DNA of 64,000 nt from a bacterium. GTDB lineage: Bacteria > Bacteroidota > Ignavibacteria > SZUA-365. Shown here piece after piece: positions 16,391 through 19,864 of the stretch (positions are counted from its first letter, which is position 1; each line of letters starts with the position of its first letter). A program made the position numbers and the translations under genes. The stretch covers positions 85,572 to 149,571 of the forward strand of contig JAHLLD010000003.1 in NCBI GenBank assembly GCA_020444325.1, written 5' to 3'. The notes under the pieces are model-generated. The model was given only the letters and a program-made list of their open reading frames with translations. It had not been told where the DNA came from and ran no database searches.

Positions 16391-16927
16391 ATGGCTCCTG
16401 CTACCCTGCAAAAACCCGCCGTCATCGTCCTGTCGCATCACCCATCACCACTCGGCAATCTGCATATCGCCAGTTGTGACGGGGCCGTCTGCTACCTCGG
16501 CTTCGAGCGTAAAGGCTATCGCGAGGATCTCTATGCCTATCTGGGACGCTACCTCAAACACTTCGACGTGCAGTCCGACAAGGGCCAACACGACAGCATC
16601 CACCGTCAGCTCGACAGATACTTCGAAGGACGCGTGAAAAAATTCCGCGTCAAGACGCATCTCTACGGGACGGAATTTCAGCTGCAGGTGTGGACGGCAC
16701 TTCGCTCCATTCAGTACGGCAGCACCAGCAGCTACCGTGCCATCGCCGACTACGTGGGCAATCCCGACGCCTCCCGTGCCGTCGGCCAGGCCGTCGGCCG
16801 CAACCCCATCTCCATCATCATACCCTGTCACCGTGTCATCGGCGAAAACGGCACCCTCGTCGGCTACGCCGGCGGCGTCGACCGCAAGAAAAAATTGTTA
16901 AAGCTCGAAGGCGCCCTCCTGGTTTAG
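16391..16927 (+). CDS. ogt: Methylated-DNA--[protein]-cysteine S-methyltransferase
   Basis: The protein has 178 residues. The active-site motif IIPCHRVIG contains the acceptor Cys146, and the conserved YGSTSSYRAIADYVGNP and GYAGG flank it. It removes O6-alkyl groups from guanine by irreversible transfer to this cysteine. The length fits Ogt rather than Ada, because no N-terminal AraC domain is present. The stop codon lies only 3 bp before the left inverted repeat of the GxxExxY cassette. Confidence 0.95.
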   Translation: MAPATLQKPAVIVLSHHPSPLGNLHIASCDGAVCYLGFERKGYREDLYAYLGRYLKHFDVQSDKGQHDSIHRQLDRYFEGRVKKFRVKTHLYGTEFQLQVWTALRSIQYGSTSSYRAIADYVGNPDASRAVGQAVGRNPISIIIPCHRVIGENGTLVGYAGGVDRKKKLLKLEGALLV

Positions 16928-16930
16928 TAT

Positions 16931-17517
16931 TATCAATGGGAACACGGATCCTCACGGATCGTACGGATTTTCACGGAAAAAGGGAGTAGGGAGAAGAGGT
17001 TGGGTTCTGACTTGCAGGCCAATGGTGGGGAAGTGACTTTGGTGTAAATACCATAATCAGGGAGAATGCAATGCTGCATGGGGAGATTACGAGGGATATC
17101 ATTCGTGGATTTTTTGATGTGTACAATACTCTGGGATACGGTTTCCTCGAACGGGTGTATGAAAACGCACTGGCTCTGGAATTGAAGGAATTGATGCTGC
17201 AGGTGGATCGTCAGGTCAAGATTGATGTGTACTACTACGACGATCGGGTTGGCACGTATTTCGCCGATATGGTCGTGGAGCGAAAGGTGCTGCTGGAACT
17301 CAAAACAGCTGATACTATCAACAATGAGCACATTTCCCAGCTGATTAACTATCTGAGATCTACAGAATATGAAGTTGGTTTGCTGTTGAATTTTGGCCGC
17401 CAGCCTCAATTCGCACGCAGAATCTTCACCAACAACCGAAAGGGTGTAATATCAGACATCTCTCCGAACCTCCGTGAGGATCCGTTGGATCCGTGAAAAC
17501 CCGTGTTCCCTTTGATA
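16931..17517. mobile_element. Putative 587-bp cassette: GxxExxY gene between 46-bp inverted repeats
   Basis: The left arm (16931-16976) and the reverse complement of the right arm (17472-17517) match at 38 of 46 positions. Both arms are built from CACGGATC-type units and start with TATCAA-GGGAACACGG. They enclose one gene (17071-17496) and leave only 3 bp to the ogt stop and 4 bp to the arfB stop. The right arm supplies the gene's last codons and its stop. No transposase is present. This is my interpretation from repeat geometry; I cannot see a target-site duplication. Confidence 0.6.
17071..17496 (+). CDS. GxxExxY protein, PD-(D/E)XK nuclease-like
   Basis: The protein has 141 residues. The signature GFLERVY (G-x-x-E-x-x-Y) lies at about residues 25-31. 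It is followed by YFADMVVERKVLLELK, which has the D-x(n)-E-x-K arrangement of PD-(D/E)XK nucleases (PDDEXK_3 family). The cellular role of this family is not established. The last nine residues, from NLREDP on, are encoded by the inverted repeat that bounds the cassette. The start ATG at 17071 follows GGGAGAATGCA, a plausible ribosome site. Confidence 0.88.
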   Translation: MLHGEITRDIIRGFFDVYNTLGYGFLERVYENALALELKELMLQVDRQVKIDVYYYDDRVGTYFADMVVERKVLLELKTADTINNEHISQLINYLRSTEYEVGLLLNFGRQPQFARRIFTNNRKGVISDISPNLREDPLDP

Positions 17518-17521
17518 GCAC

Positions 17522-17932
17522 TTACGGGTTCTGACGCAGTTTCTTCTTCTCGCTGCGTCGCTTTTTATCCTCGAGGCGTTTGAGGTTGGATGCGCGGGTG
17601 GGACGGGTTTTTTTCCGGGGTTTGGGCGGGGAGAGGGCGTGGTGGATGGCGCGGGCGAGGCGGTCGCGGGCATCCTGGCGGTTGCGTTCCTGTGAGCGGT
17701 AGCGGCGTGCTTCGATGATGAGTACGCCTTCTTCATTGATGCGGTTCTTCTCCATTTTCAGCAAGCGTTCACGCACATCCTCTGGCAGAGAAGGAGAGTG
17801 CTGTACGTCGAAACGCAGTTGAACCGCGGTGGCGACTTTGTTGACATTTTGTCCCCCGGGTCCCGATGAGCGCACGAAGCTTTCTTCGAGTTCGCTGTCC
17901 GGTATGTGTATGTCCGCCGTAATCGCCAGCAT
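17522..17932 (-). CDS. arfB: Alternative ribosome-rescue factor / peptidyl-tRNA hydrolase ArfB
   Basis: The protein has 136 residues. It contains the catalytic GGQ (Gly26-Gly27-Gln28) in RSSGPGGQNVNKVATAVQL, as in class I release factors, and a basic C-terminal tail rich in Lys and Arg that enters the empty mRNA channel in ArfB/YaeJ. It lacks the codon-recognition domain of RF1/RF2. It hydrolyses peptidyl-tRNA on stalled ribosomes. It is convergent with the GxxExxY cassette. Confidence 0.93.
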   Translation of the reverse strand: MLAITADIHIPDSELEESFVRSSGPGGQNVNKVATAVQLRFDVQHSPSLPEDVRERLLKMEKNRINEEGVLIIEARRYRSQERNRQDARDRLARAIHHALSPPKPRKKTRPTRASNLKRLEDKKRRSEKKKLRQNP

Positions 17933-18787: not shown

Positions 18788-19864
18788 ATGAAAACAGTAT
18801 GGATACTGATGCTGACCATTGTGGTCAGTATGACTTCACTGCATGCCCAGCACTATTACGTGGAGGCGAGCAGATCCGCTATTGTGCGCACGCAGCCGGA
18901 CAGGAATGCCGAGATGATTTTGCGTATGACGCAGGGGGATCAGCTCAATCTCGTACGACTCGAACAGACGGACACCTATTACGAAGTCGTGCTGCCGGCA
19001 GGGGGCAGCGGCTGGGTTTCGCGCTATGTGGTGCGGGTGCATGAAGGGGAGGCGCCGCATCCGCTGGGTGCATCTTCTTCCACGGAGGTGGCAAGCGGGC
19101 CAGTCGCGGACGTTACCAGTCTCGGCGAACCGGTGGCTTACCAGGTCCTTCGCAGACGGGCCTACAGCGCAGGTTATGATCCGAGGCTGAAAATTCCTGT
19201 GTGGGTGCAGTACACGCTCACGAAAGCACATTCGGAAGCCGATGATGTTGATCGTTCCAACGCCTTCGGTGATGATGAGGATATACATGAGGATGGCAGG
19301 GCATACAATGTTGACTATGACCAGTTAGGGGATGGCTATGTGAAGGGACACATGGCGCCGGCGGACGATTTCCGTTGGAGTGCGGAGGCTGAACGCGAGA
19401 CGAATCTGCTGACGAATATCGCACCGCAGATAGGCAGCGCTTACAACGGCAGCGTCTGGAAACGTATCGAGAACAGCGTGCGCGACTGGGCGGAAAGCCG
19501 CGGTGAAATCACCGTCATCACCGGACCGGTATTCTTTTCCCGCGACAGCATTGTGACGAAACCGGATTCTCTCACGCAGCCCGGTACTGCCCGGCAGGTT
19601 GTGTACAACGTACTCGGAGAACATGAGGTAGCAGTTCCCACTGGATTCTACAAAATCATTGTAGACGCCACAGGCACGCGGCCCGAGGTTATTGCGTTCC
19701 TTGTCCCACATTACGAAACGCACACAGATGCAGAGCGAAGCATCGCCCGCTACATCGTAAGTGTCGACGAAATCGAACGGGTCACCGGAATTGATTTTCT
19801 TCCTGAGCTGGAGAATGGAGTAGAAGCTGAGATTGAGAGCCAGCGCGCCCCCGGACTCTGGTAG
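18788..19864 (+). CDS. Secreted SH3 domain / DNA-RNA non-specific endonuclease (NUC1)
   Basis: The protein has 358 residues with a signal peptide (to LHAQ, about residue 21). A bacterial SH3-like region (about 25-80, ending GGSGWVSRYVVRV) is followed by a NUC1 domain: YDQLGDGYVKGHMAPADDF, ETNLLTNIAPQ and GEITVITGPVFF. In the family the motif is usually D-R-G-H; here it reads V-K-G-H, keeping the general-base His but not the Asp-Arg. The protein would cut nucleic acids outside the cytoplasm, with the SH3 domain perhaps binding the cell wall. AGGAG precedes the ATG. Confidence 0.85.
   Translation: MKTVWILMLTIVVSMTSLHAQHYYVEASRSAIVRTQPDRNAEMILRMTQGDQLNLVRLEQTDTYYEVVLPAGGSGWVSRYVVRVHEGEAPHPLGASSSTEVASGPVADVTSLGEPVAYQVLRRRAYSAGYDPRLKIPVWVQYTLTKAHSEADDVDRSNAFGDDEDIHEDGRAYNVDYDQLGDGYVKGHMAPADDFRWSAEAERETNLLTNIAPQIGSAYNGSVWKRIENSVRDWAESRGEITVITGPVFFSRDSIVTKPDSLTQPGTARQVVYNVLGEHEVAVPTGFYKIIVDATGTRPEVIAFLVPHYETHTDAERSIARYIVSVDEIERVTGIDFLPELENGVEAEIESQRAPGLW

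Follow-up and report, generated by a model that had tools for sequence, protein, structure and literature searches.

A 597-bp segment between ogt and arfB in the window (the whole 64,000-nucleotide stretch of bacterial contig JAHLLD010000003.1 that was analysed) is one copy of a widespread and apparently undescribed kind of small mobile element that occurs in bacteria and archaea. It carries one gene, encoding a GxxExxY protein, between inverted repeats. In the genome of the window, this single window-type gene stands beside many gene-less copies of its own ends. We consider it probable that these gene-less hairpins and the GxxExxY elements together constitute a repeat-bounded mobile family whose nuclease acts on its own ends, and we infer that the nuclease drives the spread of the element.

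Composition of the element between ogt and arfB

The element spans positions 16926–17522. Its parts and its two neighbours, which domain matches identified as an Ogt-type methyltransferase and an RF-1-domain ArfB, are as follows.

16391–16927, + strand: ogt (O6-methylguanine DNA methyltransferase), left neighbour; its stop codon TAG (16925–16927) abuts the element
16926–16977, + strand: left terminal repeat, with the outer box TATCAATGGGAAC and four CACGGAT/TACGGAT units
16978–17070, + strand: internal leader, with a Shine-Dalgarno-like GGGAGA at 17060–17065
17071–17496, + strand: GxxExxY protein gene (141 aa), predicted PD-(D/E)XK nuclease, TIGR04256 / PF13366
17471–17522, − strand: right terminal repeat, inverted; holds the last codons and the stop codon of the nuclease gene
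17522–17932, − strand: arfB (RF-1 domain peptidyl-tRNA hydrolase), convergent right neighbour; stop codon at 17522–17524

The original prediction described two matching ends that contain repeated units, lie 3–4 bp from the stop codons of ogt and arfB and, on the right, encode the end of the GxxExxY protein, and our analysis confirmed this description. Of the 46 bases of 16931–16976, 38 are identical to the reverse complement of 17472–17517. Pairing continues outwards as far as 16926–16977 and 17471–17522 (42 of 52 identical). The local inverted-repeat score is 54, whereas controls of the same geometry slid along the whole window reached 29 at most; as none of these 1,009 controls attained the score of the element, a chance match of the two arms was ruled out. 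The left-arm units CACGGAT, CACGGAT, TACGGAT and CACGGA start at 16943, 16953, 16962 and 16972, corresponding to a spacing of 10, 9 and 10 bp. The 46-bp arms are separated by 3 bp from the ogt stop codon and by 4 bp from that of arfB, and the last GxxExxY residues (REDPLDP) together with the TGA codon at 17494–17496 are encoded inside the right arm. Because the upstream gene is co-directional and no sigma-70-like promoter was found in the internal leader (16978–17070), expression of the GxxExxY gene probably occurs by read-through.

Elsewhere in the window, 1.3 kb from the element, residues encoded at 18788–19861 comprise a DNA/RNA non-specific endonuclease domain together with a probable signal peptide and, at the N terminus, an SH3-like domain. 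DNA repair genes adjoin three elements or clusters of this genome, those in the window (ogt), at L003 on contig C10 (mutS-like) and on contig C16 (dinB-like), which may be coincidence.

The GxxExxY protein is a predicted RecB/Cas4-like nuclease

The protein matched TIGR04256 (GxxExxY) with 123.8 bits (cut-off 35) and Pfam PDDEXK_3 (PF13366) with 129 bits (cut-off 22), in agreement with its initial assignment as a PD-(D/E)XK-type protein. Residues D66, E76, K78, Q90 and Y94 are invariant among 67 sequences, and the D, E-x-K and Q-x-x-x-Y motifs are thereby complete. Ten columns were invariant in a first and most diverse set of 15 sequences and eleven in the set of 67; G22, G24, E27, Y30, D66, E76, K78, Q90 and Y94 are invariant in both. 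Whereas a sequence search of the PDB returned no relatives, the AlphaFold2 model (pLDDT 87.5) had as its top Foldseek match the Cas4 protein SSO0001 (PDB 4ic1; E 5e-4, VIA Z 9.4 over 97 residues). Its further fold neighbours include lambda exonuclease, LHK exonuclease and archaeal Hjc, and the lead of 4ic1 over these other nucleases is small. Judged by its motifs and modelled fold, the window protein is a RecB/Cas4-like PD-(D/E)XK nuclease in its predicted activity.

The part of the C terminus that lies within the right arm is modelled as disordered (residues 123–141 mostly have pLDDT values below 50), as would suit an end whose role rests in its DNA sequence. Comparison of the GxxExxY genes of G000 and G002 gave dN 0.32 and dS 2.9, the latter near saturation, and the resulting dN/dS of about 0.11 indicates that the protein is under purifying selection. 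A phage origin was rejected, as no relative was present in 50,697 phage records and none was confirmed in viral contigs; plasmids yielded only eight relatives, all of them distant.

Gene-less copies of the ends are dispersed in the same genome

The original prediction proposed a search for further copies of the ends with and without the gene. In the genome of the window (4.65 Mb), the left end gave 59 matches, ruling out a repeat unique to the ogt–arfB locus, and CACGGATNNNCACGGA with one mismatch allowed gave 66 matches, compared with 3 for the reversed pattern. Most of these copies form close inverted pairs that enclose no gene: at least 16 such pairs, counted by hand from the match coordinates, were identified against the one pair with a window-type gene. 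The regular gene-less pairs measure 105–106 bp from GGAAC to GTTCCC and share a conserved core near GAAAGCGCTCGC; one copy, folded as an RNA of 119 nt, is predicted to form a single long hairpin (−72 kcal/mol). The genome contains three GxxExxY genes, and only that of the window has window-type ends. Those on contigs C1 and C10 are likewise enclosed by inverted repeats, of sequence GGAACGCGGATTATCGCTGATTGGTCGCGGATT and CTTGGGGGCACAAAGACACGAAGACACGAAG, respectively.

Two further arrangements were observed in this genome. On contig C16 (92318–95674, L340), several gene-less palindromes are clustered within 3.4 kb near a DNA polymerase IV (dinB)-like gene. The end of contig C22 (16802–17109, L024 and L025) is made up of tandem units TCCCATTGATCAGTGTCGTCCGTTTTGTCCGTGT with the outer box of the palindromes and represents a shorter derivative.

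Inverted repeats flank most members of the GxxExxY family

For a survey of the family, GTDB genomes supplied 80 named relatives of the window's clade, to which about 100 further loci with GxxExxY genes were added; 169 distinct genes with usable flanks were scored alongside 1,056 positional controls. An inverted-repeat score of at least 32 was reached by 113 of these genes (67%) and by 0.66% of controls, and a score of at least 40 by 79 genes and 0.28% of controls; none of 15 arfB genes scored for comparison reached the threshold. A strong inverted repeat is absent at about a third of GxxExxY genes, which counts against our preferred explanation.

In the flanks of the window's clade, RCNGAT hexamers are spaced by 9, 9 and 10 bp, and pairs at distance 9 occur 98 times upstream and 79 times downstream, compared with about 2 expected. 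The consensus of 65 ends from 47 loci, AATRGAACRCRGATGACACRGATnnRACnGATWWnCACRGAT, retains this spacing sharply and contains the outer box ATRGAAC. Such ends were identified in 11 named bacterial phyla, including Bacteroidota, Ignavibacteriota, Acidobacteriota, Chloroflexota, Thermodesulfobacteriota and Cloacimonadota, and at two archaeal loci. At variable columns, the two arms agree more often within an element (0.54) than between elements (0.39; 0 of 5,000 permutations), which would follow from selection for pairing or from copying of one arm by the other.

In Citrifermentans and Geomonas (L128 and L136), an element occupies the same cytochrome c biogenesis junction. In G179 (C30:42629–43312), at least 13 copies of ACAGATGGCCACAGATNNACACAGAT, 47 bp apart, adjoin a GxxExxY gene at C30:43459.

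The repeat dialect follows the protein clade

The sequence of the ends varies with the clade of the protein that they enclose. Proteins with GYGFLEKVYENAL, the clade of the window, have ends of the AATRGAAC consensus with its 9, 9, 10 spacing; those with GPGLLESVYE often have CRCRRAG units spaced by 8 bp; those with GNGFQEVIYQRAL have ends starting with TCTGAA, and those with GCGFLEIVYKDAL have ends with CACAGAA. When these four dialect labels were placed on the protein tree, 8 changes were required, compared with a mean of 27 and a minimum of 23 for shuffled labels. Since the class rules were set after inspection of the data and T-type units were also found with some GPGLLES proteins, the match between clade and dialect is strong and not one-to-one.

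Protein and repeat also co-occur across genomes. Among 296 genomes of the phylum, the median number of T-unit triplets was 12 in the 47 genomes with a window-type protein and 1 in the 147 without any GxxExxY (p = 2e-16, uncorrected for shared ancestry). G-dialect repeats were present in 43% of genomes with a G-type and no window-type protein and in 3% of those with neither, again uncorrected for ancestry, and in each of the two strata the T repeats go with the T protein. Counting against our preferred explanation, some genomes have the gene with few repeats (0 in G028 and G256), and others have many repeats with no detected GxxExxY (39 in G166 and 22 in G175). G166 is one exception to the rule; another is G065, which contains 364 T triplets and GxxExxY proteins of other clades only.

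These data bear on the possibility that another enzyme, such as a RAYT, an IS transposase or host recombination, moves the palindromes, and that GxxExxY was captured between two of them, either as a passenger or as an accessory nuclease that processes repeats. Such a capture would be in accordance with the locus of Citrifermentans bremense (L128), where the gene lies between two complete palindromes and not between two single arms, and with genomes such as G166 and G175, in which many repeats occur with no detected GxxExxY. However, a passenger would not lead us to expect that the end dialect tracks the GxxExxY protein tree or that G-type and T-type repeats should each occur with the matching type of protein, and no RAYT-like ORF was recognised in a crude motif inspection of three stretches beside the palindrome cluster on contig C16. 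We regard the involvement of another enzyme as unlikely and favour a family whose own nuclease acts on the repeats.

Occupied and empty junctions

The window copy is an old resident of the ogt–arfB junction and not a fresh insertion. In the congener G002 this junction is occupied by a GxxExxY gene whose protein shows 62% identity; its two arms have a sequence of their own and agree at 34 of 38 positions. G003, G006, G009 and G011 have gene-less repeat remnants there, and together these observations indicate that the junction has been occupied for a long time. The recent landing between the convergent genes envisaged in the original prediction is thus not borne out. At the same time, the remnants in four relatives rule out a gene fixed at this place in all relatives, and the two observations that would have spoken against mobility, a gene shared by every relative and ends confined to this locus, were both absent.

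The proposed search for empty junctions in relatives identified contiguous empty sites in Flavobacterium. In Flavobacterium odoriferum (L162), a 468-bp window-type element separates two genes that touch in G470, G374 and G334 (84–86% identity) as well as in G441, G429 and G476. The empty junction reads ...AATTTATAATGGAAAAT and the filled one AATCTTTAG-TATGAACACTGATT...CATCTGTGTTCAAAACATT-ATGGAAAAT. The insertion point coincides with an overlap of stop and start codons, and both genes retain a stop and a start. The anticipated target duplications were not seen: none is clear at this site, the only one at nucleotide resolution, nor was any excision product of the element observed. At a second Flavobacterium junction, flanked by what we take from the reading frames to be a sugar-nucleotide cupin gene and a WecB-like (epimerase) gene, F. 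succinicans has a window-type element, G377 and G324 have GxxExxY genes that belong to another clade and carry different ends, and no GxxExxY is present at this junction in the remaining relatives inspected. The presence of different elements in different species indicates that the same spot was filled more than once. Gaps at the two Flavobacterium junctions in G369 and G318 were considered and are not repeat elements. Together with the dispersed gene-less copies and the family-wide ends, the filled and empty sites support the original view of a mobile or selfish cassette, small in size and bounded by repeats.

Across all loci, the median distance from the upstream stop codon to the start of the left arm is 2 bp; the upstream gene runs in the same direction, towards the element, in 84 of 95 cases. 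The 3–4 bp gaps noted for the window are accounted for by this preference for a position directly behind a stop codon. The same preference might suggest that the repeats are host sequences with a task at 3′ ends, as bidirectional terminators or mRNA stabilisers, and that the gene uses them as a safe place. The long hairpins formed by gene-less copies are compatible with such a role, as is a gene-less palindrome that G011 has between the M16 peptidase gene and ogt, where G000, G006 and G009 lack it and have a hairpin followed by T-runs. Yet no terminator was recognised at the repeats of the window, and one arm alone lacks self-complementarity. Nor would such a role account for the clade-following dialect or the strict 9, 9, 10 spacing. 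We consider this explanation quite improbable and retain the interpretation of a mobile family with its own nuclease.

Proposed mechanism

Each element consists of two inverted ends, with an outer box and several short units spaced by 8 to 10 bp in each end, and one small nuclease gene. The nuclease is predicted to recognise the phased units and thereby to bind its own ends, which would be easiest when replication lets the arms form a hairpin or cruciform, and to cut at the ends or at the target. Host repair or replication would then place the element, or a gene-less hairpin, behind another gene, a position that would be tolerated and from which read-through of that gene would transcribe any element that still has its nuclease gene. 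Gene-less palindromes with the same ends would use the enzyme in trans. To our knowledge, GxxExxY proteins are not among the established strand-transferases, which counts against this mechanism.

Comparison with known systems

Short extragenic repeats of the REPIN/RAYT type form hairpins as inverted pairs, exist in many gene-less copies and have one protein gene lying between inverted copies of the repeat class that matches it (PMC3116915; PMC2817692). The window family likewise has one gene between inverted repeats, a repeat dialect that goes with the protein clade, and dispersed intergenic inverted doublets that form hairpins. However, its gene encodes a PF13366 PD-(D/E)XK protein with no Y1_Tnp match and not an HUH tyrosine transposase, its arms are rows of phased 8–10 bp units with no palindrome within the arm, and its elements are found in bacteria and archaea of many phyla. 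Because the defining enzyme is absent, we do not classify the GxxExxY system as REPIN/RAYT, and we liken it to that system because it works in a similar way.

MITEs of DDE insertion sequences resemble the gene-less copies in being non-autonomous inverted-repeat sequences with the ends of a gene-bearing copy. No DDE gene lies between the ends studied here, and no clear target duplication was seen at the one site resolved to the nucleotide. Homing endonuclease genes, some of which encode enzymes of the PD-(D/E)XK fold such as I-SspI, are also selfish genes with a nuclease as their sole product, whereas GxxExxY genes are free-standing between other genes and have their own terminal repeats, many sites and gene-less copies. 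Cas4 and RecB-family nucleases share the fold and the active-site pattern D, E-x-K, Q-x-x-x-Y. Unlike them, GxxExxY proteins comprise only about 110 conserved residues, have no cysteine cluster among the conserved columns and do not adjoin CRISPR at the loci examined.

The intervening sequence (IVS) of Coxiella 23S rRNA, described as a selfish element of 428 nt, has terminal inverted repeats, a small S23p ORF and tandem GACAGAT heptamers beside it (PMC4990558), and is thus similar in size and layout to the window element. The latter differs in lying between ogt and arfB and not in an rRNA gene, in encoding a PF13366 nuclease and not an S23p four-helix bundle, and in belonging to a family with dispersed gene-less copies. 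An RNA-level element of the IVS kind would pair its arms in a read-through transcript, be removed by RNase III and spread by an RNA-linked route. Such an element would agree with the predicted RNA fold, in which 85% of the bases of the left arm are paired to the right arm, and with the repeat frames of genes from the IVS protein's family described below. We find it highly doubtful, as S23p and GxxExxY are not related, none of the copies under study lies in an rRNA gene and no reverse transcriptase is linked to the element. The reading of a DNA element with a nuclease acting on its ends is thus preferred here too.

Among 29 four-helix-bundle (TIGR02436) genes outside rRNA in Bacteroidota (from loci L310–L339), 12 lie between inverted repeats of short units. 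These loci have repeat dialects of their own, TAGCTATTAGCTTTTAGCTG, GCTAAGATTCTGAG and GTATCAAGATATGAGTATCAAG. That a second small gene, unrelated to GxxExxY, shares this type of repeat frame suggests a wider class. We put forward tentatively, as a realistic possibility, that GxxExxY elements form a mobile-element class of their own, spread across bacteria and archaea, which relies not on a transposase but on a RecB/Cas4-like nuclease that recognises rows of helically phased hexamers. Many of the common intergenic repeats of prokaryotes, such as (CACGGAT)n, (CACAGAG)n, (CGCAAAG)n and (CACGAAG)n, would then be the ends and gene-less copies of this class.

Significance

GxxExxY proteins are present in half of the 296 genomes of the window's phylum, and we know of no function assigned to this common family, nor of an origin for the common intergenic repeats CACGGAT, CACAGAG and CACGAAG. 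Among 5.39 million open papers, only two name the protein and neither deals with the repeats; CACGGATTTTCACGGA occurred in none, and six further repeat strings gave a single, unrelated match. Pairing each GxxExxY clade with its own repeat gives the family a testable function, and the matched protein–repeat pairs make specificity directly testable. A nuclease that recognises phased short units could serve as a tool. The finding would add a second type of enzyme, besides RAYTs, that is able to sustain hairpin repeats in genomes.
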